NCBI RefSeq assembly: GCF_900115365.1
Contig: NZ_FOWD01000002.1
Location: 1 to 64,000, forward strand
Length of the DNA: 64,000 bases
Reading direction: 5' to 3'
DNA from: Anaerocolumna aminovalerica
GTDB lineage: Bacteria; Bacillota; Clostridia; Lachnospirales; Lachnospiraceae
Of this stretch, positions 34,669 to 64,000 are shown one piece after another. A program made the position numbers and the translations under genes. The notes under the pieces are model-generated. The model saw nothing but the letters and a program-made list of their open reading frames with translations. It searched no databases and was not told where the DNA came from. Positions within the stretch are counted from its first letter, which is position 1. Each line of letters begins with the position of its first letter.

Positions 34669-34680
34669 GTATTTGTAAGT

Positions 34681-34711: not shown

Positions 34712-34768
34712 TTGTAAATTTGTTTCAAGTTACTTTTTTATAACTAAATAAGTAGTGGGAGATTCTAT

Positions 34769-35698: not shown

Positions 35699-35784
35699 CA
35701 ACTTGGGGAAAACGTGATTCTTGTAATTCTGACAAATTATAAATCTGTTAAATATAATGTTAATTATGATTAGGAGGTATATAT

Positions 35785-37353
35785 ATGGGTAGTAGCAAAT
35801 ATTTAATGGCCATTGACGCCGGTACAGGAAGTGTCAGGGCGGTAATATTTGATACGGATGGTAATCAAGTAGCTGTATCCGCCAGAGAATGGGAACATAA
35901 AGAAGATCCCCGTTTTCCGGGTTCTATGGATTTTGACTGGGTTTACAATTGGCAGCTTACTTCCTCCTGTATCAAAGAAGCGATTGGGCAATGGGGCATT
36001 CATCCTCAGGACATTGCAGCCATATCCACAACTTGTATGAGAGAAGGCATTGTTTTATATGACAAGGACGGAAATGAAATATGGGCATGTGCTAATGTAG
36101 ATGCCCGTTCTAATGATGAAGTTATTGAATTAATCAATAAATCCTCTGCTTTAGAGCAGGATATTTATAAAGTATCCGGCCAGACATTCGCACTGGGTGC
36201 TCTTCCCCGTATCCTTTGGGTCAAGAACAAGATGCCTGAGATTTATGAGAAAACTGCTACGGTAACAATGTTCAATGATTGGTTGATTTTTAAACTGACA
36301 GGAGTTTTATCTGCAGAGCCCAGTAATGGTTGTACAACTGGTATTTTTGATTTGAAAAGCAGAATGTGGGATACATCCATTGCTGAAAAATGCGGTTTGC
36401 GAACAGATATTTTCCCTAAAGTTTACGAAAGCAGCTCCATTGTAGCTTATGTAACTAAGGAGGCTGCTGCTGAAACCGGATTAACGGAAGGGATTCCTGT
36501 AGTTGCCGGTGGCGGAGATGCGCAACTTGGCAGTATTGGAGTAGGTGTTGTGTCACCAAACCAAGCTGCTGTTTTCGGGGGAAGTTTCTGGCAATATGAA
36601 TTTAATACTGATAATGTAAAAACAGATGACCAGTGCCGTGTAAGGGTTAATTGTCATGCAATACCCAGGCTCTGGCAATATGAGGCCTTAGCCTTTTATC
36701 CGGGCTTGATTATGCGTTGGTACAGAGATGGATTTTGCCAGTTAGAAAAACAAAAAGCTTTAGAAACCGGAAAAGATGCTTATGAATTTATGAATGAAGA
36801 GGCAGTAAAGATTCCGGCAGGTTCTTATGGTATGCTATGTACCTTTTCAGATGTTATGAATTACATATGTTGGAAACATGCTGCACCTGGATTTACCAAT
36901 TTTCAGATAAATCCTGAAAAATTCAACCGTTTCACTTTTTACCGGGCAATTATGGAGAATGCTGCAATGGTGACAAAAGGCAACATGGATTTAGTATCCC
37001 AGCTTACCGGAGTGAAACCATCTGAAATCATCTTTGCATCCGGTGCTTCTAAAAGCACCTTATGGTGTCAGATCGTGGCTGATGTTTTAGGCTTGCCGGT
37101 ACATGTTCCGAAAGTAAAGGAAGCCACTGCCCTTGGAGCGGCTATATTAGCAGGCATTGGTGTTGGAATTTATGAAGATGTGGAAACCGCAGCCAAAAGA
37201 ATCGTTAAAATAGAGAATACATATCATCCTAATGAGGAAAATCATGCAATATACAATCATTTGTATACGAACTGGAGGGAAATATATTCTGCGCAGCTTT
37301 CTCTTAGTGACAGAAAGTTAACTAAGCATATGTGGAATGCTCCGGGAGTATAA
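35785..37353 (+). CDS. lsrK: autoinducer-2 kinase LsrK
   Basis: 522 residues, FGGY family. Motifs: LMAIDAGTGSVRAVIFD at the N-terminus, CMREGIVLYDKDGNEIWACA, TMFNDWLIFKLTG, VAGGGDAQLGSIGVG, FASGASKSTLWCQIVADV, and the C-terminal MWNAPG ending seen in LsrK. It phosphorylates AI-2 (as DPD) after uptake, trapping it and producing the inducer of LsrR. The start ATG has AGGAGG upstream. The near full-length match separates it from xylulose or glycerol kinases; the true glycerol kinase is at 21429. Confidence 0.92.
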   Translation: MGSSKYLMAIDAGTGSVRAVIFDTDGNQVAVSAREWEHKEDPRFPGSMDFDWVYNWQLTSSCIKEAIGQWGIHPQDIAAISTTCMREGIVLYDKDGNEIWACANVDARSNDEVIELINKSSALEQDIYKVSGQTFALGALPRILWVKNKMPEIYEKTATVTMFNDWLIFKLTGVLSAEPSNGCTTGIFDLKSRMWDTSIAEKCGLRTDIFPKVYESSSIVAYVTKEAAAETGLTEGIPVVAGGGDAQLGSIGVGVVSPNQAAVFGGSFWQYEFNTDNVKTDDQCRVRVNCHAIPRLWQYEALAFYPGLIMRWYRDGFCQLEKQKALETGKDAYEFMNEEAVKIPAGSYGMLCTFSDVMNYICWKHAAPGFTNFQINPEKFNRFTFYRAIMENAAMVTKGNMDLVSQLTGVKPSEIIFASGASKSTLWCQIVADVLGLPVHVPKVKEATALGAAILAGIGVGIYEDVETAAKRIVKIENTYHPNEENHAIYNHLYTNWREIYSAQLSLSDRKLTKHMWNAPGV

Positions 37354-50480: not shown

Positions 50481-51851
50481 TTATTCTGCTTTTTTTGGTT
50501 TTTCCCCAAATGAAAGGATTAAGTTTAACAGGATACCCACTACAGCTGCAGATGCAATAGCAGGAAACTCAGCTCCAAACATAGGTATCATGCCGTTAGG
50601 AAAACCAAAACTTCCTCCAAGTCCAATAATTAAAATAATAGCAATAACAGCCAAATTCTTAGCTACAAATAAATCCACTTTCTTTTCCATCATAATTGCA
50701 ATACCTTGAGCACCAATAACTCCAAACAAATAAATAGATAGTCCGCCGATTACAGATGTAGGAATAGAGTAAACGATATTTATTAATGGTGTAAAACATG
50801 AAATAATCATTGTAATGATAGCAGCTGCAATAAGTACCGGAACTGAGAATATTTTAGACAGAGCCATTGCACTGATATTCTCCCCGTAATTTGTTCCTGC
50901 CGGTCCTCCGATAAAGCCGGATACAATATCGCCGATACCATCACCAATTAGGTTAAGGCCTAATTTATTTTCAAGATCATAAATCTTATCAGAACCTTTT
51001 TTCTTTGCTAAGTCTTTTACATAAATATCCAATTGATAAATATGGGCTGTAGATTCAGGTATGGTAGCAATTGCAATGGGCATAATGGCTGCAATAGCAG
51101 CTAAATTAGGCTTTGGCAATGTAAAGACAGGCAAGCTGAATATACCGTCTGCTTCCAGTGTATTAAAGTTAATAAAAGGTATTCCTGTTATGGCGCCAAT
51201 AATTGCAGCAGCAATATAACCTGTAAAAAGGCCAAAAAGTATAGGCAGCTGACTTAATTTACCTTTTAGGTATACAGAATATAAAATAGTTGATAATAAT
51301 GTAATAATTGCAATAATCCATGCCATATTGGTGGCAAGGAATGTATCTCCTTCCGCAACTCCAGAAGGAATGGAATGAGCATTTGCCATGGCGCTTACTG
51401 CCAAAGATAAACCAATAATAATAGAAATACTACCGGTAACCGTTGCCGGAAGTATTTTATCTATTGTTGCTTTACCCGAACGTTTAATAATAATTCCTGC
51501 AATAATAGATACAAATCCTGACATTACAATACCAAACTGAGCAATGGAGATCTTGTCATTCAGTGCATAAGAAGAGAAAGTTTCGGCACCCATAATTGAA
51601 ACAATGGCAGCAATGTAAGAGAAACTGGAACCATAATATAAAGGAATCTTTCTGCCGGTAATTAAAATAAAACATAAAGTTGCCAAACCACTGGCAAAAA
51701 TGGTGGTTGATACATGAAAGCCGGTAAGTAGTGCAACTAAAACAGTAGCCGGAAACATAACTATGATTTGCTGAAGAGCAAACGGGATGAGTTCCAGTAT
51801 AGGCGGCCTCTCATCTGGCAGATAGCCAATAGATTGATTTTTTGTTGACAT
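50481..51851 (-). CDS. uracil/xanthine permease family (NCS2) transporter
   Basis: 456 residues with about 14 membrane segments. NCS2 marks are the TM3 region PLYYGSSFSYIAAI, the TM8 acidic motif ATIPESTAHIYQLD and the TM10 motif GGPAGTNYGENISAMAL. The NYGEN form of the last motif resembles uracil permeases (UraA/PyrP) more than xanthine or urate carriers, so a pyrimidine-like or small oxidised heterocycle is the better guess. It ends the gene series of the molybdenum hydroxylase and probably brings in its substrate. Its ribosome site (GAGGT) is provided by hairpin-SD copy 5, three bases ahead of the start. Confidence 0.87.
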   Translation of the reverse strand: MSTKNQSIGYLPDERPPILELIPFALQQIIVMFPATVLVALLTGFHVSTTIFASGLATLCFILITGRKIPLYYGSSFSYIAAIVSIMGAETFSSYALNDKISIAQFGIVMSGFVSIIAGIIIKRSGKATIDKILPATVTGSISIIIGLSLAVSAMANAHSIPSGVAEGDTFLATNMAWIIAIITLLSTILYSVYLKGKLSQLPILFGLFTGYIAAAIIGAITGIPFINFNTLEADGIFSLPVFTLPKPNLAAIAAIMPIAIATIPESTAHIYQLDIYVKDLAKKKGSDKIYDLENKLGLNLIGDGIGDIVSGFIGGPAGTNYGENISAMALSKIFSVPVLIAAAIITMIISCFTPLINIVYSIPTSVIGGLSIYLFGVIGAQGIAIMMEKKVDLFVAKNLAVIAIILIIGLGGSFGFPNGMIPMFGAEFPAIASAAVVGILLNLILSFGEKPKKAE

Positions 51852-51853
51852 TT

Positions 51854-51890
51854 TAACCTCGATTCCGGTGCTTTAGCACCATTATAATAA
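51854..51890 (-). repeat. hairpin-SD repeat, copy 5 (in front of the permease gene)
   Basis: The perfect dyad GGTGCTTTAGCACC at 51867-51880 is followed on the minus strand by GGAATC and GAGGT, then TTAA and the permease ATG at 51851. Over 35 bases it is identical to copy 6 at 56655-56690. Confidence 0.85.
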
Positions 51891-51943
51891 ATATTTACAA
51901 TTTGAAATTAACGGCTTTTGTATAGAGGTTACATTTAAAAATA

Positions 51944-54274
51944 TCATTGTTTTAGTTTCTTTTCCTTTAATGCTTTTAAAATATCTTCCGAAGTTATGGG
52001 CATTCTGTGAAAGCGTACACCAATTGCATTATAAATGGCATTTGCAATACATGGAGCACCGGGAACCATAAGTGGTTCGCCTACCCCCCTTGCACCGTAA
52101 GGTCCTGTAGGCTCTGCATGTTCAACATACTTAACAATAAGTTCAGGGGCATCATCTGCTGTAGGTATCTTATAATCTACAAAACTCTTATTTAGAACCC
52201 TGCCGTTCTGAAGCTTTAGTTCCTCAAATAATGCCGTACCCAATGCCTGAACCATTGCACCTTCACTTTGTGCTGCAAAAAGTGTTGGATTAATAACCTT
52301 TCCTGCGTCAAAACAGGATACCATCTTAAGCACTTTACATGCACCGGTATCGGTATCTATTTCAATTTCACATCCGTTCATGCCCATAGTCCAAAAGGCT
52401 GCCGGATGATGTTTTGCAATACCGGTTTTCTTATCGGTATTTATGTTATTCTCCAGTGTGAATGATCCTACACCAATTGCAGGACCGCCGTATCCGCTGC
52501 CATCATTAAAAGATACCCCCAATGCAAAATCCGATATTGGAAGTTTTCTTTCCGGATAGATCTTATGTGCAACATATCCATCTCTGAATTCCAGGTCTCT
52601 TTTTACTACGCCCATCTTAATCTGTGCAAGATCAAGCACTTTATCTACCAGATCTTCTGCTGCTAACTTAACTGCATTACCTGCACAATAGGTAGTCCGG
52701 CTTGCAACTGTCTGCCACTCGTAAGGAGTATGGTCCGTGTCACCTGAACAAAAGGTAATCTTATCGGGAGATACAGAAAGCACTTCTGCTGCAATCTGTA
52801 CAAGCACCGTTGCTGCACCCTGACCGATTTCCTGTCCACTGCTCATTAAGAAGAAAGTACCATCTTCATTCATTCGGATTATAGCTGAGGAACCTGCGTT
52901 GGTAGGCATGGAAGGGGATTTCCAGCCTGCGGCAATTCCCTTTGCCCGTATCTTATGAGGACCTGCCGGCTGGCAAGGTTTATCATACTCAATCTCCTTA
53001 ACTACCTGGTCAATACAGTCCATAAGTCCGGCAACATCCATTCTCTCACCCATTCCTGTATATCCGCCAGGTTTTATTCCATTCAGCCTTCTTATTTCTA
53101 CTGGTGAGATTCCAACTTTCTCCGCTATTATATCCATGTTCTGTTCAATGGCAAAATGAATTTCACACATACCAAAACCACGGTATGGACCTCCAACGGG
53201 ATGATTGGTATAAACGCAATAGCTGTCAGTCCAGACATTATCAATATCATAAGGCCCTGCTGATGCCCATCCACCTGCCTTAGTTATATTAACACCGTAT
53301 TCCGTATAAGCCCCCCCATCCCATATAAATTCATTGTGAAGTGCTATAATCTTTCCATCCTTACCAACACCGGCTTTAATTCTGGCATGCATACCCTGAC
53401 GGACATAAGCATTTACGAACTCATCTTCACGGGTATAAAGCAGCTTAACAGGACGCCCTTTACAGCGCTTTGCAAGAGGTATAACAATTCCTTCAAGAGT
53501 GGTTCCGGCCTTAGATCCAAAACCGCCCCCAACAGTAGGTGAGATAACCCGTATTTTATTCAGAGGCATTGCAAATGCAACGGAAAGTGCCTGGCGAACT
53601 GCGTAAGGGGACTGACAGCTTGCCCAAACAGTAAGTTTTCCATCTGTATCATATTTTGCAATTGCTGCATGAGGCTCTAATGGAACATGCTGTACATGAG
53701 GGATATAGAAAGAATTCTCAAATACATAGTCTGCCTCTGCAAATCCTTTCTCTGCATCTCCTTTTCTCAGCACGTAATGGTGAGAGATATTGGTTCCCTT
53801 TTCAGGATAAAATATAGGTGCCACTTTATATGTATGGAGATCCGGGTGAATTAAAGGCGCATCCGGTTTCATGGCATCCACTGCATTGATGACCCCAGGT
53901 AATTCTTCATATTCAACTTTAATAAGATCACAAGCCTGCCTTGCTATTTCCGGGGTATCTGCGGCAACAGCGGCAACTGCCTCACCCATATATTTTGCCG
54001 TATCTCCTATCTTTGCCATAAAATACCTGTCTTCCAGATAAAGTCCTGCACGGTTAGGATATTCATCACCTGTTATTACACATTTTACTCCGGGAAGTTT
54101 TTCTGCTTCTGATGTATCAATGGAAAGAATCCTTGCATGGGCATAAGGACTTCTGACACACCAGGCATAAAGCATTCTGGGAAGGCGTATATCATCAACG
54201 TATTCTGCCTCTCCTGTCACTTTCTTAACAGCATCTTTACGTTCATAAGATTGGCCAACATACTTTAATTCCAT
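51944..54274 (-). CDS. molybdenum hydroxylase (xanthine dehydrogenase family), molybdopterin subunit
   Basis: 776 residues, the normal size. Conserved blocks: the N-terminal a/b hammerhead (KKVTGEAEYVDDIRLP), PTVGGGFGSKAGTTLEG, GPYRGFGMCEIHFAIEQ, SSGQEIGQGAATVL, and the active-site glutamate in GARGVGEPLMVPG. It hydroxylates a C-H bond of a heterocycle with water as oxygen source and passes electrons to the Fe-S and FAD subunits. Whether the substrate is xanthine, a pyrimidine or another ring cannot be read. Its ATG overlaps the stop of the 2Fe-2S gene by one base (TAATG). Confidence 0.92.
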   Translation of the reverse strand: MELKYVGQSYERKDAVKKVTGEAEYVDDIRLPRMLYAWCVRSPYAHARILSIDTSEAEKLPGVKCVITGDEYPNRAGLYLEDRYFMAKIGDTAKYMGEAVAAVAADTPEIARQACDLIKVEYEELPGVINAVDAMKPDAPLIHPDLHTYKVAPIFYPEKGTNISHHYVLRKGDAEKGFAEADYVFENSFYIPHVQHVPLEPHAAIAKYDTDGKLTVWASCQSPYAVRQALSVAFAMPLNKIRVISPTVGGGFGSKAGTTLEGIVIPLAKRCKGRPVKLLYTREDEFVNAYVRQGMHARIKAGVGKDGKIIALHNEFIWDGGAYTEYGVNITKAGGWASAGPYDIDNVWTDSYCVYTNHPVGGPYRGFGMCEIHFAIEQNMDIIAEKVGISPVEIRRLNGIKPGGYTGMGERMDVAGLMDCIDQVVKEIEYDKPCQPAGPHKIRAKGIAAGWKSPSMPTNAGSSAIIRMNEDGTFFLMSSGQEIGQGAATVLVQIAAEVLSVSPDKITFCSGDTDHTPYEWQTVASRTTYCAGNAVKLAAEDLVDKVLDLAQIKMGVVKRDLEFRDGYVAHKIYPERKLPISDFALGVSFNDGSGYGGPAIGVGSFTLENNINTDKKTGIAKHHPAAFWTMGMNGCEIEIDTDTGACKVLKMVSCFDAGKVINPTLFAAQSEGAMVQALGTALFEELKLQNGRVLNKSFVDYKIPTADDAPELIVKYVEHAEPTGPYGARGVGEPLMVPGAPCIANAIYNAIGVRFHRMPITSEDILKALKEKKLKQ

Positions 54275-54753
54275 TACCGTTCACCTCCCCTTAAAACTTT
54301 GGCTGCCTCTTCAATAGCTTCAATAATGCGGACATATCCGGTGCATCTGCAAAGATTTCCGGCAATTGCCGTTTTAATCTCTTCACGGGAAGGATTTGGA
54401 TTCTCCTGTAACAGGGCTGTTCCTGACATAATAAAACCCGGTGTACAGAAACCGCACTGTAAAGCTGAAAGTTCAACAAATTGTTTTTGCAATTCTGATA
54501 ATTCACCATCTTTAGTAATACCTTCAATTGTTGTAATATGCATGCCATCAAGTTCAGGAGCCAGAACCAGGCAGGCATTTAGAGGTTTGCCGTCGGCAAT
54601 AATAGTGCATGCACCGCATTCGCCGGCACCGCAGCCTTCTTTTGTACCTGTAAGACAAAGTTCATCACGTAATATATTTAGCATTGTCTTATTCCCATCA
54701 ACATAAAGTTCAACAGGTTCTTCATTTACATAAAAATTAACTTTATATTTCAT
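54274..54753 (-). CDS. molybdenum hydroxylase, 2x[2Fe-2S] subunit
   Basis: 159 residues. The plant-type ferredoxin cluster is bound by GTKEGCGAGECGACTI and the Cys of NACLVLAP; the second cluster by LQCGFCTPGFIMSG and NLCRCTGYVRII. This is the standard small subunit that wires the molybdenum centre to FAD. The start is the ATG at 54753, eight bases after AAGGAGG; the longer frame from 54783 would overlap the FAD gene without a ribosome site. It sits between the FAD and molybdopterin genes in one transcript. Confidence 0.93.
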   Translation of the reverse strand: MKYKVNFYVNEEPVELYVDGNKTMLNILRDELCLTGTKEGCGAGECGACTIIADGKPLNACLVLAPELDGMHITTIEGITKDGELSELQKQFVELSALQCGFCTPGFIMSGTALLQENPNPSREEIKTAIAGNLCRCTGYVRIIEAIEEAAKVLRGGER

Positions 54754-54766
54754 AGCAAGTACCTCC

Positions 54767-55600
54767 TTATGCCAGCTGTTCAAGGCTGCGTCTTACAGTA
54801 ACTTCCACAACATCAAGACGGTATTCCTTTGATGCCCGGATATCACTGATGGGGGAAACCTCTGTACAAGCATGCTTTGCTGCCTCATCTATTAACTCAG
54901 GTGTCAGTTTCTTTTCCTGTAACAAGCTTTCCGTCTCAGGCAGTCTTATGGGGGTAGGTGCCACTGCACCGAATGCCATCCTATAATTATCGCCAATCTT
55001 AAGTACTGTACCACAGATAGTGGCCAAATCTACTTCCTTACGTCTTGAAATTTTTGTAAAAATACCTTTTGCTCCTTCTATATAGGGAACTTTAACACCG
55101 ACAACAATTTCATCAGGCTTTAAAACCGTCTTCCTTACAAAAGTAATAAATTCTGTAATTGGAATTTCTCGTTTTCCTTCTTTTCCAACTATGCATATAT
55201 TTGCTTCACAGACATATAATGGCGTTCCCGTATCACACAAAGGTGAAGCATTTACAATATTGCCCACTAAAGTTGCACGGTTACGAACCTGTTTACTTCC
55301 TACAGAGTGAGCTGCTTCTGAGAGGAACGGATAATATTTTCTAACGTCTTCATTATCACTGATATCATTCATGGTTACACATGCACCGATATACAGACCT
55401 TCTTCTTTGCTAAAAGTAATCTGGTTAAGCCCCGGAATATGCTTAATATCAATAACAAACTCCGGTGCAATAAGACGTTCGCGAAGCTGGATTACTATAT
55501 CTGTTCCGCCGTTTAAGAGAACAGAACGTCCTTCGTGCTCACAACGAAGTGCAACCGCTTCTTCTACTGTTTCCGGCCTCAAATATTGAAATTCTTTCAT
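54767..55600 (-). CDS. molybdenum hydroxylase, FAD-binding subunit
   Basis: 277 residues with the PCMH-type FAD fold: SVLLNGGTDIVIQLRE near residues 26-41, VRNRATLVGNIVNASPLCDT, SRRKEVDLATI, and the C-terminal domain GAVAPTPIRLPETE and DIRASKEYRLDVV. It accepts electrons from the 2Fe-2S subunit and passes them to NAD+ or another acceptor. It is the first of the three hydroxylase genes (order FAD, Fe-S, Mo) and is split from the cyclase gene by a 180-base palindrome. Confidence 0.93.
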   Translation of the reverse strand: MKEFQYLRPETVEEAVALRCEHEGRSVLLNGGTDIVIQLRERLIAPEFVIDIKHIPGLNQITFSKEEGLYIGACVTMNDISDNEDVRKYYPFLSEAAHSVGSKQVRNRATLVGNIVNASPLCDTGTPLYVCEANICIVGKEGKREIPITEFITFVRKTVLKPDEIVVGVKVPYIEGAKGIFTKISRRKEVDLATICGTVLKIGDNYRMAFGAVAPTPIRLPETESLLQEKKLTPELIDEAAKHACTEVSPISDIRASKEYRLDVVEVTVRRSLEQLA

Positions 55601-55632
55601 TGGCCCCTCCTAACAGTTCATATAGATTTAAC

Positions 55633-55811
55633 AAAAAAGGCTGTCACCAAAACCGCTAAAAAAGTCATCTCTTTGTTATTCTGAACATTAATCAGCCAAG
55701 CTGTAAAATGTATAATTCAAAAGGAATTTTAATACAAAATAACAAGTTTAAAATAATGAACTTTTTCAGCCTTCTCACTTAGAATGTCTAAGTTATGGTA
55801 CAGCCTTTTTT
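55633..55811. mobile_element. 179-bp MITE-like palindrome inside the hydroxylase operon
   Basis: AAAAAAGGCTGT (55633-55644) is exactly mirrored by ACAGCCTTTTTT (55800-55811). A second layer pairs GCTAAAAAAGT with ACTTTTTCAGC, and a small hairpin ACTTAGA-ATG-TCTAAGT lies at 55777-55793. No coding sequence is inside. It lies between the cyclase and FAD-subunit genes and could also act as a partial terminator within the operon. Confidence 0.65.
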
Positions 55812-55851
55812 CTCTAGTATTTAATTTATAATGTTATGTAATTATATCTTT

Positions 55852-56652
55852 TTAAGCATCTTCAAAACCATCAAATGCAACGATTCTGGCTATGCAGCTT
55901 TCTCCGTCAACCAATTTCCAAGGAAAACATCCGATTACAAGGCGCTTGTTACTAAGTTTGTCAATTTCGCCCCCAAGACATTCAGCGTGTATGGCTTCAT
56001 ATGGCTTACGAAATAGTTCAATATGCATTGCCTGATAGCGATCCGGCCAAGGATATACTTCATTCAGGCTCTTTCCGTAGCGTTCCTTGAACAACTCATC
56101 ACATTTTACTGCTTCCATAGGTTCCCAGTCACGGATCTTCGTATTCATTGGGTGGTCTGCACTGCCGCAGTCAACACCAATCCAGCGAAGCTTTTTATCA
56201 CGGACCCACTGTACAAAATCAAGGCTGGGGCCGGGATGTCGAAGCATATAACGTCTCTCGTCCGCTTCCGGCTGATCCCATCCATATTTGTGATAACCTG
56301 TGTTTATAATAAGAATATCCCCTTCTCTTACTTCAACTCTCTTCTCAATATCTTCCGGTGTATAGATTCCAAAATCCTCAGCCTGATCCGATAAATCCAC
56401 AACCACACCAGGATGGCAGAGTTTTGTAAGTTCAAGGGATGCCATATCACGTCCTGCCGTATCAAAATGAAGAGGACCGTCAAGATGTGTACCTACATGG
56501 TTACTATGGGTTATTAACTGTCCGTTGGCACCATTAGGAGCAAGACGTTTAAAGAATTTCATCTGCAGCGGCTCATAGGTAGGCCACGGGGGTGTATTAA
56601 TTCCAATAGGAATTGAAAGTTCGTATATTGTTATATCTGACCATTTACTCAT
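55852..56652 (-). CDS. cyclase family protein (PF04199, kynurenine formamidase-like)
   Basis: 266 residues. The metal-binding signature is HSNHVGTHLDGPLHFDTAGRD, with the HxGTHxD and PxHF parts intact, and the later GVDCGSADHPM and HIELFRKPYEAIHAECLGGE blocks fit the family. Members are Mn/Zn hydrolases that open cyclic amides or cut formamides (isatin hydrolase, kynurenine formamidase). Beside a molybdenum hydroxylase and a carbamoyltransferase-like trio, opening of an oxidised N-heterocycle is a natural role. Its ribosome site comes from hairpin-SD copy 6. Confidence 0.85.
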   Translation of the reverse strand: MSKWSDITIYELSIPIGINTPPWPTYEPLQMKFFKRLAPNGANGQLITHSNHVGTHLDGPLHFDTAGRDMASLELTKLCHPGVVVDLSDQAEDFGIYTPEDIEKRVEVREGDILIINTGYHKYGWDQPEADERRYMLRHPGPSLDFVQWVRDKKLRWIGVDCGSADHPMNTKIRDWEPMEAVKCDELFKERYGKSLNEVYPWPDRYQAMHIELFRKPYEAIHAECLGGEIDKLSNKRLVIGCFPWKLVDGESCIARIVAFDGFEDA

Positions 56653-56654
56653 AT

Positions 56655-56690
56655 TAACCTCGATTCCGGTGCTTTAGCACCATTATAATA
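56655..56690 (-). repeat. hairpin-SD repeat, copy 6 (in front of the cyclase gene)
   Basis: The dyad GGTGCTTTAGCACC lies at 56668-56681; the minus strand continues through GGAATC and GAGGT to the cyclase ATG at 56652. Sequence is identical to copy 5 except at the flanks. Confidence 0.85.
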
Positions 56691-56780
56691 ATCATATATT
56701 TAACCGAATATCCTTTACCCGGTTATATTTTAGGTCCGCAATAAATAGAGAAATTAAAGTAACATTTACAGCGTTTACTA

Positions 56781-58205
56781 TCAAGACCACTTATTCACAC
56801 ATGCTGCCAGCGCTTTTTTAAAACATGCTTCCGGCGGGTGAACCAGTCCTGCACCAACCTGCCCCACACCTGCTTCCTTATGTGCAATACCTGTATTGAT
56901 AATAGGGCGAATGCCGGTTTCAATTACTTTAAGCAAATCAATGCCGGTAGGTGCTCCGCGGAAATCAAGCCCCGGAATCTTATAAGCAGTACCCTCCCCT
57001 ATTGTTATTTCATACATCTCCATGGTGTAATTCTTTGCATCCGATACCTGGCCTCCAACGAACTGTACAATAGCAGGTGCTGCTGCCATGCAGAATCCTC
57101 CAATTCCTGCTGTCTCAGTAATACAGGAATCTCCTAAGTCATAAGCTTCATCTTCTTCCGTAAATCCCGGAAATAAAAGTCCTTCTACCCTTTCTGCGGG
57201 AGCTGTAAACCACACATCCTTTCCAAGTCCTGCTATTCGGATTCCAAAATCAGTACCGTTACGGCACATGGTAGCTGCTACTGTACAGTATTGAATATCA
57301 AAAATAGGATCCATAGTACATTTACAAGCAGGCATGGATATATTTAAGAAGGTATGATCGTTGCTGTTAATAAAATTAAGGGCTGCTATTTTCTTCTCAT
57401 TGGGCAGATCAGCCTCTAATATAGCTGGGGTAAGTTCACGGAACAATAGTGATGTGCCTGCTTTGTTTCGATTATGTCCTTCGTCCCCCATCTGTAAAAG
57501 CTGAGCTATCATCGTCTTAATATCTATTTCACCTTTTATTTCCATTGCCGCTTTTAAAACCGGATATAAATCTTTTTCTATCCAGCGAAGCCTTGTAAGT
57601 ACTTCTTCATCAAAAGCACCAAAACGAAGAACTTTTCCAAGGCCTTCATTAATAGTACAATAAGCCCGATTACCAAAAGTTTTGTTTTCCAATATCCATA
57701 CAGGCATGGAATATGTTACAACACCAGCCATAGGACCTACCCCATTGTGCATATTGCAGGGAGCAAATGTAATTTTACCGGAAGCTGCAAGCTGCCCGGC
57801 TTCTTCAATATCAGCAGCAAGTCCTTCATATACAAGGCCTCCCAAAACAGCACCTTTTTGAGGTCCGCACATGCGCTCCCATGTAATAGGCGGGCCGGCA
57901 TGAAGTATGGTTTCCTTTGTCATTCCCGGAATTACTTTACCTGCAATTCCAAGCCCTATTATAACCGGTTGCGCTGCAAGAATTCTTCTAAGTGCCTCTT
58001 TATTTGCTTCCTGGATTTTTGAATAAAGTTCCGGATTCTTAAGCTTTCGTAAGTTTGCAGCTGCCTCCTTATCACCGCCTGCTACAGGTTTCCAATCTAT
58101 ATGTATTGCAGGTTTATACTGAATCTTTAAATCATTATAAAAAGATTCAATCCCAAAATTAACAACATGCAGGTCCTTCTGAAATAATGTATTTAATTTA
58201 CTCAT
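56781..58205 (-). CDS. DUF1116 protein, YlbE/AllG-like carbamoyltransferase subunit
   Basis: 474 residues, full length for DUF1116. Family blocks: VDWKPVAGGDK-like HIDWKPVAGGDKEA, LHAGPPITWERMCGPQKGA, FAPCNMHNGVGPMAGVV, DEGHNRNKAGTSLLFREL, and the C-terminal PRINTGIAH-like PIINTGIAHKEAGVGQVGAG. In E. coli, AllG (YlbE) together with AllF (FdrA) and AllH (YlbF) has been reported to be oxamate (oxamic) transcarbamylase, splitting oxalurate into oxamate and carbamoyl phosphate. Here the gene follows FdrA by 12 bases. A different ureido substrate is possible because no allantoin gene is present. Confidence 0.88.
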   Translation of the reverse strand: MSKLNTLFQKDLHVVNFGIESFYNDLKIQYKPAIHIDWKPVAGGDKEAAANLRKLKNPELYSKIQEANKEALRRILAAQPVIIGLGIAGKVIPGMTKETILHAGPPITWERMCGPQKGAVLGGLVYEGLAADIEEAGQLAASGKITFAPCNMHNGVGPMAGVVTYSMPVWILENKTFGNRAYCTINEGLGKVLRFGAFDEEVLTRLRWIEKDLYPVLKAAMEIKGEIDIKTMIAQLLQMGDEGHNRNKAGTSLLFRELTPAILEADLPNEKKIAALNFINSNDHTFLNISMPACKCTMDPIFDIQYCTVAATMCRNGTDFGIRIAGLGKDVWFTAPAERVEGLLFPGFTEEDEAYDLGDSCITETAGIGGFCMAAAPAIVQFVGGQVSDAKNYTMEMYEITIGEGTAYKIPGLDFRGAPTGIDLLKVIETGIRPIINTGIAHKEAGVGQVGAGLVHPPEACFKKALAACVNKWS

Positions 58206-58217
58206 TCCACCACCTCC

Positions 58218-59777
58218 TTACTCCATATTGGCCAGCACACGCTCTACAAAACGGGTTGCCTGAGCATTTGATGGAAGTACTACAGCACCTGCATCTGCCA
58301 ACTGTTTCTGTGTTTTGCTAAGACACTGGGGATCTCCTTCTGTACCACAAACGGCTGCAACCACAAGAAGATGTCTGCCTTCCGCCTCTGCCTCTGCCTT
58401 CGCTGTCTTAACAGCCTCAGCTAAATCCCCTGCCGGATTCTCATGTGAACCATATCCAATTACACAGTCCACCATTATGATTGCACATTCCGAGTCCTTA
58501 CCGTCTGTTATCACCCGTTCTGCACGTAAGGATGGATCAATCATGGGATGAGGTCTTCCTACCGTGAATTCATCATCACCAAAATCAAGAAAAGTATGTT
58601 CACGGCTCTTGCCGTTTCTTGCATCATTCAGCTTATCCTCCGGCTGTAAAGGAATATTGCTGTATATGTGTCCAAGTTTCGAAAGCATAAGTTTCATGGC
58701 TTCATCACAAAGGGTACCTCCTGTATAGAAGCCCCGTACATATTTCTGACTCTTTGCCATCTTAGAAGCATGTTCTTTCGCCAAAGCTTCTGCTTCTGCC
58801 TCCCCCATAGTAAAGGCAACATAATCTTTTACAGCCTCTCCCTTTGAAAGTGCCACTGCCTTATGTGCGGCATCTTCCAAAGATATAGCCGCCGTAAGGC
58901 CAAAAGCCTCGATCTCATCCCTGTCCCCGCCTATAAAGCAAACAACAACGGGTTTTCCTGCCTTTGATGCTAAAGTAAGGATTTCTGAAGCAATCTCTTT
59001 AGCCGGAGGCTTACTGATTAAGGTAATAACATTGGTTTGAGGATCATTAATCAGTGCATCAAGTCCAAATTTCATCATAATGCCCCCGATTTCTTTTTTT
59101 AAGTCACGCCCCCCTGTACCTATTACCTGAGAAATACCTCCTCCTAACTGATCAATAATGGAGGATACTTCCTGTGTACCTGTTCCGGATGCAGCTACAA
59201 TTCCTATGTCCCCTGCCCTTACCACATTGGCAAAAGCAAGGGGTACATGATTAATGATCGCGGTTCCGCAATCAGGCCCCATAACCAATAGCTCCTTCTT
59301 ATATGCACATTCTTTCAATGCACGTTCTTCTTCTATGGTAACATTATCTGAAAAAAGCATTACATTAATATCTCTATCAAGGCAGCTCTGTGCTACATCA
59401 GCCGCATGTTTTCCGGGAACAGAAATAACCGCAAGATTGATATCTGAGTCAATTTTTATAGCACCCTCCAAAGTAGGCGGATGATAATCAGCCTCTTTTG
59501 ATTCCGATTTCTTATTAAGAAGTTGATCTACCTTCTTCTTAGCAGCTTCAAATGCGGTTTCATCATCACAATGTACTGCTACAAAGAAATCATTTGGGGT
59601 AACTTTCTCTAATTCAGGTGTTGCAAGCCCTATATTAACCGCTATCTCACGATTAAGGTCAGTTCCCATACCCACCAGCCCTTCACTAATTCCATTCACT
59701 TTCTTTATGTCTTTGCTGATAAGCATCAATGTTACTGAATCATAATAAGCGTTTTTTCTAATCTCAAGCTTAACCAA
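58218..59777 (-). CDS. fdrA: FdrA/AllF-like acyl-CoA-synthetase-fold protein
   Basis: About 519 residues. The N-terminus (VKLEIRKNAYYDSVTLMLIS) and the VGMGTDLNREI block are typical of FdrA. A succinyl-CoA-synthetase-like CoA domain follows (GIVAASGTGTQEVSSIID, GTGGRDLKKEIGG), then a ligase-like part with VRGFYTGGTLCDEAM and IGRPHPMIDP-like VGRPHPMIDPSLR. The GHAGA phosphohistidine loop of true succinyl-CoA synthetases is not seen, which fits a carbamoyl- rather than acyl-transferring role. I choose the TTG at 59777 (AAGGAG six bases before); the longer frame lacks a ribosome site and reaches into the DUF2877 gap. Confidence 0.88.
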   Translation of the reverse strand: MVKLEIRKNAYYDSVTLMLISKDIKKVNGISEGLVGMGTDLNREIAVNIGLATPELEKVTPNDFFVAVHCDDETAFEAAKKKVDQLLNKKSESKEADYHPPTLEGAIKIDSDINLAVISVPGKHAADVAQSCLDRDINVMLFSDNVTIEEERALKECAYKKELLVMGPDCGTAIINHVPLAFANVVRAGDIGIVAASGTGTQEVSSIIDQLGGGISQVIGTGGRDLKKEIGGIMMKFGLDALINDPQTNVITLISKPPAKEIASEILTLASKAGKPVVVCFIGGDRDEIEAFGLTAAISLEDAAHKAVALSKGEAVKDYVAFTMGEAEAEALAKEHASKMAKSQKYVRGFYTGGTLCDEAMKLMLSKLGHIYSNIPLQPEDKLNDARNGKSREHTFLDFGDDEFTVGRPHPMIDPSLRAERVITDGKDSECAIIMVDCVIGYGSHENPAGDLAEAVKTAKAEAEAEGRHLLVVAAVCGTEGDPQCLSKTQKQLADAGAVVLPSNAQATRFVERVLANME

Positions 59778-59846
59778 AATATTCTCCTTCCTGTTAAAGC
59801 GGATTTTCCAAAGCACAAAATTTAACTTCCTAATCTGCAAAAAGCT

Positions 59847-60755
59847 TTACAATCCGTTTAAATTTACAATTGCCAAGACAACTCCCGTAAGGATATCCGT
59901 ACCGGAGGTAGAACCAAAGTTCAATATACGCTCTGCACTTTTTTCCAATATCTCTGTCTCTGCATCGGAATATATTGTACACAGAAATCCTGTCATGTCC
60001 TGTGATAGAAGTCCCATACCGCACTGTTTTAAAAATGCACCGCTGATTGTATTGGTTCGTTTAGCTGCTTTGTTACCCATGGCATATGTAATTTTATAAA
60101 TTTCTTCACAGTCGTTACCTTTTGCTTTTGTATCAGCAAGAAAGGCTGATATATATCCCAACAGCATATCATCTGATGAAGGGGTAAGTCCGATTCCGCA
60201 GCCTGCCAGTCCTTCCGCATGTTCTCCTGCCTGTATGTCTTTTTTCTTAATAGCTTCATTTAACCCCGGTAATTTTTTCATTATGAACTGGGAATATGGA
60301 TTCTGATACTTTCCCGTAACCAAAGTACTTAAATCAAATTCACAGCCTTTTACCTCAATAAGTTTTTTTAGTAGTTCTACTTTTACACTCAAATCTTTTG
60401 GAACAAACAAGCCTGTATGTTTCCTAAAGGACAGGTCACATTCCAAAGCATCTTCCAAATTTACAATCATATCTGCATTTGGAATAGTAAGTCTGTTACC
60501 GGATGTAATAACATCCATCCCTTCCCTTATACCTGACTTAGTAAATGATAAGTTATCCAAAACCCTGCCAGACATTGGGTATAAGCACCGCATGTCTGAA
60601 AGCAGGGTAAAAAATATATCATTACAGATTAAATTAGCTGCGGTATCAAAAACTGAATGTATTTTGAAAACTTTATCATTAATCAAAAGTACATTCCGAA
60701 GCTTCCCGCAAATATCAACTGCCTTTAGCTCTTTCATACATTTCTGAAATTCCAA
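59847..60755 (-). CDS. DUF2877 protein, YlbF/AllH-like carbamoyltransferase subunit
   Basis: About 300 residues. The DUF2877 signature is GLAGCGIGLTPSSDDMLLGY (about residues 192-211), followed by GNKAAKRTNTISGAFLKQC and a closing FGSTSGTDILTGVVLA. In E. coli this family (AllH) is the third part of oxamate carbamoyltransferase. The start is uncertain: the frame opens with a TTG at 60755 inside a hairpin that also covers the DUF35 stop codon; an ATG at 60737 is the alternative. Neither has a strong ribosome site, so translation is probably coupled to the DUF35 gene. Confidence 0.82.
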   Translation of the reverse strand: MEFQKCMKELKAVDICGKLRNVLLINDKVFKIHSVFDTAANLICNDIFFTLLSDMRCLYPMSGRVLDNLSFTKSGIREGMDVITSGNRLTIPNADMIVNLEDALECDLSFRKHTGLFVPKDLSVKVELLKKLIEVKGCEFDLSTLVTGKYQNPYSQFIMKKLPGLNEAIKKKDIQAGEHAEGLAGCGIGLTPSSDDMLLGYISAFLADTKAKGNDCEEIYKITYAMGNKAAKRTNTISGAFLKQCGMGLLSQDMTGFLCTIYSDAETEILEKSAERILNFGSTSGTDILTGVVLAIVNLNGL

Positions 60756-60777
60756 AAGGCACTAAGCCTTTTGGAAT
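60749..60777. promoter_or_regulatory. 12-bp perfect hairpin over the DUF35 stop / DUF2877 start
   Basis: ATTCCAAAAGGC (60749-60760) and GCCTTTTGGAAT (60766-60777) pair fully; the 5-base loop contains the DUF35 stop codon. It would hide the DUF2877 start unless ribosomes finishing DUF35 open it. Confidence 0.6.
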
Positions 60778-61133
60778 ATGAAACCATGCTGAGGAGCTAC
60801 AACTGTTTCTTTATATAATATTGTTTTTTCTTTCACAATCCCCACTGTGGCAATCAGTTCCATGCCTGACTCAATTCCCTCATCAAACCCTATCTGTCCT
60901 GTGGCACGAACACCGTTTTCAAATTCCACAATACCAAAGTTTAACCAGGGACACATATAACCTTCCGGAAGATTATAAACTCTGGTCCATGTTAAAAGCC
61001 TGCACTTTCCTTCCAGCGGAATCTTCTCAAACTCCCGGCCATCGCAGTCAGGATTCTGACAAACGATGTAACGGGGATGATGTAGCTTTCCGCATTTAGT
61101 GCATTTATAAGTATACATTTGTTCCATTTCCAT
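60762..61133 (-). CDS. DUF35 zinc-ribbon / OB-fold acyl-CoA-associated protein
   Basis: About 123 residues. The N-terminal rubredoxin-like zinc ribbon is YKCTKCGKLHHPRYIVCQNPDC (two CxxC/CxxxxC-type pairs), followed by the OB-fold domain with TWTRVYNLPEGYMCPW and VGIVKEKTIL. DUF35 proteins are obligate partners of thiolase-fold enzymes, for example in BbsAB and in the steroid side-chain aldolase Ltp2-ChsH2. Its partner here is the next gene upstream in the transcript (61221-62417). I take the ATG at 61133 as start, seven bases after AAAGGAG; the longer frame has no such site. Confidence 0.87.
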   Translation of the reverse strand: MEMEQMYTYKCTKCGKLHHPRYIVCQNPDCDGREFEKIPLEGKCRLLTWTRVYNLPEGYMCPWLNFGIVEFENGVRATGQIGFDEGIESGMELIATVGIVKEKTILYKETVVAPQHGFIFQKA

Positions 61134-61220
61134 ATCCATACTCCTTTCACAGGTCGAAGAATACAATACTTTCAACCTCCCCGACAGAATGCCGCTTTGG
61201 GGCATCTCACACTTATCTCC

Positions 61221-62417
61221 TTACTTAGTTGTCAAAACGGTTGATACGACATTGTTGCCAAAACCGCCAAAGTTAACTGCCAAACCTGTTTTTGCACCTT
61301 CCACTTGTCTCTCTCCTGCTTCACCACGAAGCTGACGAACAAGTTCAACAACCTGTGAAACCCCGGTTGCCCCAAGAGGGTGACCCTTCGCTTTTAATCC
61401 CCCTGATGTATTAACCGGTTTCTTTCCAGTAAGTGCTGTTTCACCGTTACGGGCTGCAAGATGACCTTCACCCCGTTTAAAGAAACCAACCTCCTCTGAT
61501 TCTGCAATTTCAAGGATTTGGAATGCATCGTGTAATTCTGCAACATCTATATCTTCAGGGCCAACCCCTGCCATCTCATATGCCATCTTAGCACTTAGCC
61601 TTACCGCCAATAAGTCGGAAGGAACTTCACGGTTAGCAACTACATGGGTATCTGTAGCTGAGCCCATACCTGCAATCTTAACGAATTTCTTATCTCCGAA
61701 GCCAAGAGCATCTTTCTTATCCTCCGCAACTAAAAGAACTGCTGCCGCACCATCGGATACCGGGCACATATCAAATTGACGAAGAGGGTCTGCAACGATA
61801 GGATTCGTAGCATTTATGTATGCCGGATTGGTAATACGCTCTAATACAACGCGGCTATGGATATGTGCACAGGGATTCTTGCATGCATTTGCATGGTTCT
61901 TTACGGAAACAATCGATAAATCTTTGCTTTCAAGACCGTATTTATCCATACAAAGTCTTGTAAACATACCTGCGAATGCAGGTAGCGTAGCACCATATTT
62001 GTACTCGCTTTCAGGATGAAGCATCGTAGCAACAAAGTCCGTACCTTCCCAGCCGGTTACTGCACGCATACCTTCTGCACCAATTATCAGCACACAGTCA
62101 CACATACCGGATGCAATAGCCATAAATCCTAGCTTAATGGCGGAAGCACCGGAGGCAGGACCATTCTCAACTGTCTCTGCCATAGCAGGACGTATATTCA
62201 AGGTGTCAACAACTGCAGATGCAGTACCGCTGATTCGGTTTACCATACCTGCACCCATTGTACCGACAAATACCTGGTCAATAACGTTATTTCTACCTGT
62301 TTTTGCCCCTGCATCATCCATTGCCTGGAGGGCAGCGTCACAGACCATATCCATAAACGGAACTTCAGACTTACCAAATTTGGTGTGCCCAATTCCTACA
62401 ATACCTACACTACGCAT
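61221..62417 (-). CDS. thiolase-superfamily (SCP-x/Ltp-like) protein without the canonical nucleophilic Cys
   Basis: 398 residues with the lipid-transfer/thiolase fold. At the position of the acylated cysteine (usual CASG loop) it reads VENGPASGASAI, so Cys is replaced by Pro. The later catalytic histidines remain: AELHDAFQILE and KAKGHPLGATG; the usual C-terminal Cys-Gly loop is NFGGFGNN. Thiolase-fold proteins lacking the cysteine and paired with DUF35, such as Ltp2, act as aldolases rather than thiolases. A retro-aldol or other C-C cleavage is therefore likelier than thiolysis; the substrate is unknown. The ATG at 62417 follows AAAGGAG. Confidence 0.87.
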   Translation of the reverse strand: MRSVGIVGIGHTKFGKSEVPFMDMVCDAALQAMDDAGAKTGRNNVIDQVFVGTMGAGMVNRISGTASAVVDTLNIRPAMAETVENGPASGASAIKLGFMAIASGMCDCVLIIGAEGMRAVTGWEGTDFVATMLHPESEYKYGATLPAFAGMFTRLCMDKYGLESKDLSIVSVKNHANACKNPCAHIHSRVVLERITNPAYINATNPIVADPLRQFDMCPVSDGAAAVLLVAEDKKDALGFGDKKFVKIAGMGSATDTHVVANREVPSDLLAVRLSAKMAYEMAGVGPEDIDVAELHDAFQILEIAESEEVGFFKRGEGHLAARNGETALTGKKPVNTSGGLKAKGHPLGATGVSQVVELVRQLRGEAGERQVEGAKTGLAVNFGGFGNNVVSTVLTTK

Positions 62418-62434
62418 AACGTTCTCCTTTCAGA

Positions 62435-63097
62435 TCACACTTTAATTTCAGCAGGTTTATGTAACACCTTATTTGCTTCTACAACATCCTCAAATGCAGG
62501 GCGAATACCAACGTTCTTATTTGCTTTATGCTTCTCCCATAACTCACGTGTAAGCACATATGTAGGAACACCCCCTAATTCATGCTGGCATTCAAAGCGA
62601 GGCTCTAATTCATATTCTATCATCCAACGTTTGAATCCGTTAGGGCTCTCAGCTACGATCAAAACCTCATCCTGATCCATAAAGTCAAAATGATATTCCA
62701 TCTTTGCAGCAAAAAGCTGAGCACCAACACGGACACCACGCCTAAGTGTTATTGTATGGTATGACATACCAAGTTTCTCATTTACGAGACGTCCGTTAAC
62801 AATACCTGCGATTTCACCATCAATAGCACCTACAAAGCAGTATTCATCCCTTACTCTGTAACGGTACATTCCAAGAAGTTCTGCATAGATACGCGAAGCA
62901 ACTATGTCATAGAAATCTTTAGGCTGTTTCATTAAGGGCTCGATTGTTTCCATCAATAAAGGAATCTCATCATAAGTTACTTCACGAACCAACATATCCT
63001 CACCTGTAATTAGTGGAATAACCTTTGCTTCATAAGGTTTCATTCCTATTGATGGGGGCCTTAATTTGCCTTCCATCTCATCAATAATGATACCCAT
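62435..63097 (-). CDS. GNAT-like N-acetyltransferase-fold protein
   Basis: 220 residues. The central part (VREVTYDEIPLLMETIEPLM... FVGAIDGEIAGIVNGRLVN... TITLRRGVRVGAQLFAAKME) follows the GNAT pattern of strands and the acetyl-CoA loop, but the usual R/Q-x-x-G-x-G/A motif is blurred (RRGVRVGAQL). It ends with a long charged tail. It is the first gene of the operon, 17 bases before the thiolase-fold gene, and has AGGAGG before its ATG. It may modify or bind a CoA intermediate; I cannot name a close relative. Confidence 0.65.
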   Translation of the reverse strand: MGIIIDEMEGKLRPPSIGMKPYEAKVIPLITGEDMLVREVTYDEIPLLMETIEPLMKQPKDFYDIVASRIYAELLGMYRYRVRDEYCFVGAIDGEIAGIVNGRLVNEKLGMSYHTITLRRGVRVGAQLFAAKMEYHFDFMDQDEVLIVAESPNGFKRWMIEYELEPRFECQHELGGVPTYVLTRELWEKHKANKNVGIRPAFEDVVEANKVLHKPAEIKV

Positions 63098-63263: not shown

Positions 63264-63272
63264 AAAATATAA

Positions 63273-63310
63273 TAGCTCCCGCTTATAATTAAATTATAAA
63301 CGGGAGCTAG
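63273..63310 (-). terminator. terminator after the MocA/ModE-like gene
   Basis: TAGCTCCCG (63273-63281) and CGGGAGCTA (63301-63309) form the stem with an AT-rich loop; the minus strand continues TTATATTTTA. It separates the regulator from the 11-gene operon. Confidence 0.75.
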
Positions 63311-63347
63311 TTTTCTTTCAACTTGTTTCTAAATGTAATTTGTTCTG

Positions 63348-64000
63348 TCAAATTAACTGCTTTTCCTTAAATATTCTGTCAAATTCCGACTGTGCAAATC
63401 GAATTACCCTATCTTCATATTCAAAATACGCTGATAGAAATTCCACCCCTTTTTCTGTCAGAAGGGTTCTTCCATACCGGCTTCCTCCCTGCCGTCTTTG
63501 AACAATGGTATAACCAAGTTCAAATTCCAGTTTATTTAAAACCTTCCATGCCTTAGTATAAGACATAGACATCAGTTCACATGCTTTATTAACTGACTTG
63601 GTTTCGGTTATCAGGTATAAAAGCAGCTTTGTCCTATTATTAAAAAATACAGATTCTTTCTCAATACTAAGCCCTACCGCTGCCTGCATTAGGGCTCGAT
63701 TATGCTGTTCAAGTAATTTCTGCAATTGTTCATAACTATGTACATCCTGAACCACCCCTTCATCCTCAACCTCAACTTTTACATGATATTCCTTTAATAA
63801 ATGAATGGCACCCTTAAATTCTTCTTCTCCATTATAGTGCAATATGTCAGGAATAACTGATGATGATATGAGTACAGGATAACCTTCTTCCTCTTTATAA
63901 ACCGGGTATGTAACATCACCCTTTGTATCAAGCAGAATTTTCAGAGTTTCTGGGGAAAACATAGGCGAATTAACAGGTGTAATTGCAATATGGCTGCATT
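63348..64000 (-). CDS. MocA-like nucleotidyltransferase fused to ModE/LysR-type HTH, partial
   Basis: The frame is open to the right edge, so the protein is longer than the 204 residues that follow the ATG at 63962. The edge-most part reads IAITPVNSPMFSPETL, the PVDxPxxSPETL motif of MobA/MocA molybdenum-cofactor nucleotidyltransferases, followed by GDVTYPVYKEEEGYPVLIS and VEVEDEGVVQDVHSYEQL, typical of their C-terminal half. After residue ~105 comes a ModE-like winged helix (SVNKACELMSMSYTKAWKVL, VQRRQGGSRYGRTLLTEKG). Cofactor maturation and gene control are thus joined in one protein next to a molybdenum hydroxylase operon, which it probably serves. The nucleotide-binding N-terminus is outside the window. 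Confidence 0.8.
   Translation of the reverse strand, partial: CSHIAITPVNSPMFSPETLKILLDTKGDVTYPVYKEEEGYPVLISSSVIPDILHYNGEEEFKGAIHLLKEYHVKVEVEDEGVVQDVHSYEQLQKLLEQHNRALMQAAVGLSIEKESVFFNNRTKLLLYLITETKSVNKACELMSMSYTKAWKVLNKLEFELGYTIVQRRQGGSRYGRTLLTEKGVEFLSAYFEYEDRVIRFAQSEFDRIFKEKQLI

Follow-up and report, generated by a model that had tools for sequence, protein, structure and literature searches.

Among the closest described relatives of the system considered here is the AllFGH carbamoyltransferase of Escherichia coli, built from FdrA (AllF), DUF1116 (AllG) and DUF2877 (AllH) family proteins. These three were earlier proposed as candidates for the oxamate carbamoyltransferase (PMC3364942), and the E. 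coli enzyme, characterised with oxamate and carbamoyl phosphate, is reported to convert oxalurate to carbamoyl phosphate and oxamate (PMC11326118). In nitrifiers AllFGH adjoins biuret genes and has been interpreted as serving oxalurate degradation (PMC12625717), and anaerobes with the reductive urate pathway are described as gaining carbamoyl phosphate from the ring ureido group by means of YgeW and YqeA (PMC12507026). The stretch of Anaerocolumna aminovalerica DNA analysed here (64,000 nucleotides, hereafter the window) sits in a 250,714-base contig of a 4.62 Mb genome given as 99.86% complete, and carries AllFGH homologues within a run of eleven minus-strand genes that extends from 63097 down to 50481. 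We tentatively propose, at a little under even chances, that these genes form a catabolic operon for a heterocycle with an N-CO-N group, most likely uracil or thymine, which would serve as a source of nitrogen, carbon and energy.

All eleven genes that the earlier note had placed in this operon were recovered as open reading frames (ORFs). The run begins at 63097 with three genes for proteins of GNAT fold, thiolase fold and DUF35 type, in this order, continues with AllH, AllF, AllG and a PF04199 hydrolase (referred to as the cyclase), and ends with the three subunits of a molybdenum hydroxylase (FAD, 2Fe-2S, Mo) and a permease of the NCS2 family. The gaps from the GNAT gene through AllG are 17, 15, 6, 6 and 12 nucleotides (nt), while the cyclase gene is flanked by wider gaps of 128 and 251 nt; the three hydroxylase genes overlap one another and lie 92 nt from the permease gene. 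In the proposed pathway the permease would import the base and the Mo hydroxylase would oxidise it with water-derived oxygen, taking uracil to barbiturate. The PF04199 hydrolase would then open the barbiturate ring to give ureidomalonate, an N-acylurea that is the homologue of oxalurate with one carbon more, and AllFGH would phosphorolyse ureidomalonate to carbamoyl phosphate and the amide acid malonamate. A carbamate kinase encoded elsewhere in the genome would make ATP from the carbamoyl phosphate, and the GNAT, Cys-less thiolase-fold and DUF35 proteins would carry the C3 amide acid to acetyl-CoA by CoA transfer followed by a malonyl-type decarboxylation. In some relatives an amidase, a dicarboxylate CoA-transferase and an MmdA-like decarboxylase would do this instead, so that the cassette would take the place of their class III CoA-transferase, amidase and MmdA-like genes.

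The unit was traced in 81 loci, namely the window and the best 80 of 462 AllG relatives from a scan of named genome contigs. Gene tables were made with our own ORF caller, and all presence counts are lower bounds because some loci end at contig ends, the GNAT gene is under-called and the cyclase of one locus (L046) was seen in the first ORF call and missing from the second. ORF calls place the cyclase in 71 of the 81 loci, AllF in 75 and the Mo subunit in 42, with 23 loci for the thiolase-fold protein, 23 for DUF35 and 21 for GNAT; by tblastn the respective figures are 71, 77, 41, 22, 22 and 22 out of 80. Where AllG and the cyclase are both present, the latter starts no more than 300 nt downstream of the AllG end in 62 of 71 loci. 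AllF, AllG, cyclase, thiolase fold, DUF35, Mo and FAD occur together in 16/81 loci, which belong to Bacillota, Spirochaetota and one unclassified bin and include the NCS2 permease in 12 cases; the closest rows to the window's AllG in the AllG tree are Bacillota, among them a Herbinix (Lachnospiraceae) bin, L003. AllFG and the cassette are also found in a Holophagaceae bin (L032) and a Hyphomicrobiales bin (L046), with no hydroxylase seen in the DNA examined. Clostridium ragsdalei, C. magnum and C. thailandense share the order AllH-AllF-AllG-cyclase-GNAT-thiolase-DUF35-FAD-FeS-Mo-permease, and a Spirochaetales bin (L035) has FAD-FeS-Mo-AllF-AllG-cyclase-GNAT-thiolase-DUF35. The earlier note had regarded a lack of conserved gene order as grounds for abandoning its proposal; the order proves not to be fixed, whereas the gene set is kept, and its recurrence in these loci and in a phylum-wide sample of 398 genomes supports a conserved functional unit.

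The three carbamoyltransferase genes are adjacent and their products all score above curated cut-offs: AllF (58218..59840, minus strand) reaches 495.6 bits with PRK06091 (cut-off 433), AllG (56781..58205, minus) 309.9 bits with PF06545 (cut-off 27) and AllH (59847..60755, minus) 79.9 bits with PF11392 (cut-off 25). Homology to the E. coli subunits is clear for AllF (38% identity to FdrA) and AllG (46% to YlbE), and AllH is a weak, family-level match (YlbF, E 4e-7). By this homology to the E. coli enzyme (PMC11326118), the phosphorolysis to carbamoyl phosphate that the earlier note attributed to the trio is likely. Residues 509-555 of E. coli FdrA, its final 47, form a C-terminal module that the window AllF lacks; they match residues 10-56 of the window AllG with 40% identity. 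Among 80 loci scanned, this module of about 47 residues was matched in 79, in 60 as an N-terminal fusion to AllG and in 19 as a separate ORF between AllF and AllG, as in L028 and L040; 18 of the 19 are clear, the module counted as separate in L039 adjoins a broken AllG frame, and L061 alone gave no match. Given its placement at the C terminus of AllF in E. coli, at the N terminus of AllG or in an ORF of its own, AllFGH seems to have a mobile fourth module where AllF and AllG adjoin; the module goes unmentioned in the abstract and discussion of PMC11326118. Consistent with the statement in the earlier note that allantoin and carbamate kinase genes are absent from the window, E. coli AllB, AllC, AllD, AllE and YbcF gave no tblastn match there at 1e-5. 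The only over-cut-off carbamate kinase of the genome lies on another contig (C45:46515-47441; 386 bits against 358).

The cyclase (55852..56652, minus strand) far exceeds the PF04199 cut-off (121.4 against 23.1 bits) and carries the family's HxGTHxD motif, which extends to an invariant SNHxGTHxDG across 26 aligned rows; the 25 others are 61-93% identical to the window protein. On these sequence grounds it is placed in a distinct, strongly conserved PF04199 subfamily tied to AllFG. Its predicted model, with a predicted local distance difference test score (pLDDT) of 78 and two segments below 50, has as nearest fold the ring-opening amidase isatin hydrolase (Foldseek E 1.3e-13), and the arylformamidase equivalog cut-off is not reached (48.1 of 223 bits). 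The protein is a predicted ring-opening hydrolase of cyclic imides or amides. A search of the genome with PF09663, the AtzD-type barbiturase family, gave no match, and 14 control genomes were equally without one. As a separate observation, Lachnospiraceae and Flavonifractor-type gut loci (L009, L010, L013-L015) have AllFGH, together with a cyclase that is 83-88% identical to the cyclase of the window.

As to the substrate, one indication comes from the permease (50481..51851, minus strand; PF00860, 210.8 bits), which reads NYGENISAMALSK at the NAT motif, with the Glu-Asn pair of the uracil-type form NYGEN. Its three best solved-structure matches are uracil permeases (E 1.8e-56), and the uracil-type assignment made in the earlier note is upheld by motif and structures alike; the score against the uracil permease equivalog is 267.7 bits, below the cut-off of 477. 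The Glu-Asn form is found in all 42 readable permeases of the core cluster (43 in total, one a fragment), and another NCS2 cluster (c18) has Gln-Asn or Ala-Asn in seven of nine proteins and Glu-Asn in two. At the corresponding place of UapA, a change of Gln to Glu is reported to let the transporter accept uracil along with other bases (PMC5972032). The hydroxylase, of the xanthine dehydrogenase (XDH) family, consists of a Mo-cofactor subunit (51944..54274, minus; MoCoBD_1, MoCoBD_2 and Ald_Xan_dh_C), a 2Fe-2S subunit (54274..54783, minus; Fer2_2 109.6 bits, Fer2 26.5 bits) and a FAD subunit (54767..55600, minus; FAD_binding_5 160 bits, CO_deh_flav_C 77 bits). It reaches none of the XDH equivalog cut-offs (XdhA 557/780, XdhB 213/310, XdhC 190/217), and the Mo subunit, which matches 4-hydroxybenzoyl-CoA reductase, CO dehydrogenase, quinoline oxidoreductase and XDH alike, stays below the cut-off of each NCBIfam model among the matches listed. 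Choosing the substrate from Mo-subunit homology or from active-site columns was not decisive. It is conceivable, though we consider it unlikely, that the same architecture acts on another ring, such as a purine fragment, hydantoin, a cyanurate- or biuret-type compound or a substituted pyrimidine, the rest of the molecule being left to the CoA enzymes. The non-specific Mo-subunit homology, the deaminase-like amidohydrolases and different permeases of some relatives and the biuret genes next to AllFGH in nitrifiers (PMC12625717) would fit such a ring, whereas the uracil-type motif throughout the core permease cluster and the separate urate-type cluster in the same genome speak for uracil or thymine.

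Returning to the uracil or thymine pathway, its lower part is illuminated by two modules that never occur together. The thiolase-fold gene is present in 23 and a class III CoA-transferase gene in 28 of the 81 loci, with none having both (Fisher p 1.2e-5; all Fisher tests given here are uncorrected for kinship); over the 49 loci with at least 4 kb on both sides the exclusion gives p 2.5e-5, and tblastn without ORF calling gives 22/80, 28/80 and none. On the AllG tree, a quick tree of 80 of the 81 AllG rows (at least 350 residues), the two states switch at least five times. This mutual exclusion suggests two ways of handling one acid or amide intermediate, and cassette and CoA-transferase may act on one and the same compound. 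The functions given to clustered ORFs (CoA-transferase, amidases, carbamate kinase, MmdA-like and PucR) rest on scans of one or two representatives each. The CoA-transferase representative matches PF02515 with 453 bits and lies nearest to dicarboxylate CoA-transferase models; the window's genome gave no class III CoA-transferase match, and five of 14 control genomes did. Amidase-family genes occur in 9/28 CoA-transferase loci and 1/23 thiolase loci (p 0.015), and a nitrilase-family hydrolase stands beside the core in 3/81 loci. The earlier note's route from uracil through barbiturate to ureidomalonate gains support from these amidase, dicarboxylate-type CoA-transferase and MmdA-like genes adjoining the core in relatives, and the pathway, its steps being predictions, gives a task to most of the recurring accessory families.

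The same genes bear on the improbable alternative that the trio keeps its E. coli substrate. Here the cyclase would make oxalurate, for instance from parabanate or another imidazolidine produced by the hydroxylase, AllFGH would yield oxamate and carbamoyl phosphate, and the relatives with a CoA-transferase would continue by amidase and oxalate CoA-transfer. The characterisation of E. coli AllFGH on oxamate and carbamoyl phosphate (PMC11326118) is in its favour, as is the best NCBIfam model of the CoA-transferase, CoA:oxalate CoA-transferase, albeit below cut-off. Against it, neither the thiolase-fold/DUF35 cassette nor the MmdA-like genes would have an obvious use for a C2 diacid, and a tblastn search of the 80 loci found none of E. 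coli AllC, AllD and AllE at 1e-15 and matched AllB, at 24-25% identity, in two. Furthermore, we know of no Mo hydroxylase that makes parabanate.

In the cassette that would carry malonamate to acetyl-CoA in the pyrimidine pathway, the GNAT, thiolase-fold and DUF35 genes are contiguous in 20 of 23 loci by ORF calls, and the GNAT gene is present by tblastn in all 22 loci that carry the thiolase-fold gene. The 220-residue GNAT-fold protein (62435..63097, minus strand) has no Pfam family at E<=1 and no sequence relative in the Protein Data Bank (best E 0.24). Its model, with a pLDDT of 86, adopts a GNAT fold (Foldseek E 1.3e-8 to PatZ, with mainly GNAT acetyltransferases in the top 50 rows), and from this modelled fold it probably moves an acyl group onto or off CoA. 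The DUF35 protein (60762..61205, minus; its true start may lie further in) has a zf-ChsH2 domain (23.5 bits, cut-off 23.2) with a BbsA-like body, and by homology a zinc ribbon and an OB fold (6esq DUF35, E 1.9e-8). The thiolase-fold protein (61221..62417, minus) has recognisable thiolase domains, and solved thiolases aligned to it show CASG with the nucleophilic Cys. At this position all 23 homologues read ENGPASG, with Pro replacing Cys; the motifs HDAF and NFGGFGNN and the histidine of GHP are retained. YDHF and YDCY are the motifs reported for the aldolases Ltp2 and Sal, the latter also without a nucleophilic Cys (PMC12329534); in the 23 homologues this motif is replaced by HDAF, with His for the aldolase Tyr. 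Thiolysis and retro-aldol cleavage are both unlikely because the nucleophilic Cys and the aldolase Tyr have both been lost. The motifs instead lead us to guess at a malonyl-type decarboxylation; a Cys-less thiolase-like protein, TbSLP, is described as slowly decarboxylating malonyl-CoA (PMC12329534).

These substitutions bear on the view that the DUF35/thiolase-fold pair cleaves C-C bonds of a longer carbon chain, as a thiolase or as a retro-aldolase of the Ltp2/Sal type, which we hold to be distinctly improbable. The overall family resemblance to the archaeal thiolase-DUF35 and BbsAB complexes would suit such an activity, as would a 3-hydroxyacyl-CoA dehydrogenase family gene in 4/23 cassette loci against 0/28 CoA-transferase loci (p 0.035). 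Set against this are the Pro in place of Cys in 23/23 and the HDAF in place of the aldolase motifs (PMC12329534) in as many. Of the interpretation given in the earlier note, the operon as a unit, the role of the trio, the permease and the pyrimidine model find support; the cutting of the chain by thiolysis was not borne out.

The phylum sample of 398 genomes is independent of these loci. It includes 60 genomes with AllG and 42 with the cyclase (E<=1e-30), 39 having both; 21 of the 60 AllG genomes are without the cyclase, and AllG therefore has other contexts too. Close homologues of the thiolase-fold protein (at least 68% identity, next best 43%) occur in nine genomes, on the same contig as AllG in eight. 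Among 391 genomes sampled from the class, a homologue at this level is confined to the window's own genome and is therefore rare and patchy in the class. That unrelated modules were juxtaposed by chance or shared mobility, as varying gene order between lineages and the patchiness of the cassette might hint (thiolase-fold gene in 0/15 same-family genomes of the class sample, AllG in 0/4 of the phylum sample), is already largely refuted and hardly credible, considering that one core is found recombined with one set of modules in different phyla and that AllG and cyclase accompany the close thiolase homologue in 9/9 genomes.

Several observations nevertheless weigh against a uracil or thymine pathway with the steps set out above, in which the substrate and every catalytic step are predicted from sequence and gene context. 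The homology of the Mo subunit does not by itself single out uracil, nor is the NAT-motif Glu exclusive to it: two of the nine c18 permeases have it, and the UapA variant with Glu at the corresponding place is reported to be promiscuous (PMC5972032). The best model of the CoA-transferase, CoA:oxalate CoA-transferase (405.6 of 522 bits), fits oxalate as well as malonate, and this likeness keeps the oxalurate/oxamate version alive. MmdA-like carboxyltransferases occur in only 4/81 loci and amidases in 15/81, and no amidase gene is found among the Pfam families of the eleven ORFs of the operon. Sal, itself a Cys-less thiolase fold, is reported to have failed to decarboxylate malonyl-CoA (PMC12329534). 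By our own estimate, an exchange of amide for thioester by the GNAT protein would run uphill. It is also, to our knowledge, without precedent. Finally, the model leaves two groups of loci unexplained. In the gut loci L009, L010 and L013-L015 the DNA examined shows no Mo hydroxylase; their amidohydrolases are deaminase-like and perhaps provide another entry to the same ring, and their permeases are of other kinds. In 30 of the 81 loci, and in 13 of the 49 flanked by 4 kb or more on each side, neither cassette nor CoA-transferase is present.

Upstream of the operon on the same strand lies a twelfth gene (63348..64000 in the window, continuing to 64274 on the contig) for a MobA-like NTP transferase (PF12804, 58.6 bits) with a LysR/ModE-like helix-turn-helix (HTH_1, 25.7 bits, cut-off 26.6). 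It stands in the same place in L003, was found by tblastn in 1/80 loci and is probably a Mo-cofactor gene or a regulator. Between it and the operon, an inverted repeat at 63264..63318 with a 17-bp stem (folding z -6.6) overlaps a promoter-like TTGAAA-17-TATAAT, and L003 has a counterpart (L003:1255-1301), a 23-bp perfect inverted repeat whose stem sequence differs while the pairing is kept. The promoter-like sequence occurs in both, with the -10 element within the first arm (the L003 site was read by eye). Sigma-70-like sites in the region number 42 against 41.2 in shuffles and terminator-like sites 12 against 10.5; being at shuffle level, such sites are alone no proof of a single transcript, and the case for the promoter rests on the match in L003. 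The repeat is possibly a promoter nested in a terminator, which would insulate the operon from the upstream gene. No Rfam RNA reached gathering scores in the window, and PucR-type regulator genes (one representative scanned) are present in 26/81 loci.

Elsewhere in the genome, the carbamate kinase gene adjoins urate-type genes, and C45:35205-47444 resembles the greater part of a reductive urate cluster: besides the kinase it holds HyuA-, YgfK-, SsnA-, YgeX-, YgeY- and YgeW-like genes; these names were read by eye, except for the hydantoinase family and the carbamate kinase, and no search for XdhD was made there. In the window, a stand-alone 574-residue protein at 10920-12644 resembles by eye the N-terminal part of the genome's YgfK-like protein, and 28219-37353 holds what we take to be lsr-like (autoinducer-2 uptake) genes for a DeoC/LacD-family aldolase, a sugar-binding protein, a transporter, a regulator and an FGGY kinase.

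A search of open-licence PMC papers, which is no proof of absence, returned no description of this pathway or gene set. It is possible, although we would rather bet against it, that the locus represents a new oxidative pyrimidine pathway of anaerobes from several phyla, which yields carbamoyl phosphate and acetyl-CoA through a barbiturase-type PF04199 hydrolase, a four-module AllFGH and, in the branch of the window, a complex of GNAT, Cys-less thiolase and DUF35 proteins that converts malonamate to acetyl-CoA with neither a CoA-transferase nor a separate amidase. If so, AllFGH-like enzymes would gain a second, wider role that would explain many FdrA/DUF1116/DUF2877 genes currently interpreted by analogy with allantoin degradation, and an ATP-yielding pyrimidine catabolism would be added to those described, along with a new enzyme for ring opening and a thiolase-DUF35 complex devoid of the Cys. 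Clostridium ragsdalei P11 and C. magnum DSM 2767 are named-strain carriers that make the proposal directly testable.

The known oxidative pyrimidine pathway proceeds through uracil dehydrogenase, an AtzD-family barbiturase and ureidomalonase and ends in hydrolysis to urea. The window's proposed pathway would share with it the intermediates barbiturate and ureidomalonate, and would differ in using a PF04199 hydrolase for ring opening and phosphorolysis to carbamoyl phosphate for the ureido group. With the reductive urate pathway (PMC12507026) it would have in common that anaerobes draw carbamoyl phosphate from a ring ureido group; the carbamoyltransferase family and the ring chemistry are different, and the urate-type cluster appears separately in this genome. 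The cyclase shares its fold and the HxGTHxD motif with isatin hydrolase and kynurenine formamidase, although these structural matches are only about 16-20% identical to it. The archaeal thiolase-DUF35-HMGCS, BbsAB, PhlABC and Ltp2/Sal-DUF35 complexes all pair a thiolase fold with DUF35, as does the window, which departs from them in the Pro for Cys, the HDAF motif and a third gene of GNAT fold. A further comparison is with E. coli AllFGH of the anaerobic allantoin pathway, whose three homologous subunit genes likewise stand side by side. There, however, allantoin genes and a carbamate kinase are linked to the trio and the movable module is attached to AllF, whereas the window operon has neither and bears the module on AllG, and AllFGH of the window type is, unlike that of E. 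coli, trailed by the cyclase in most relatives examined.

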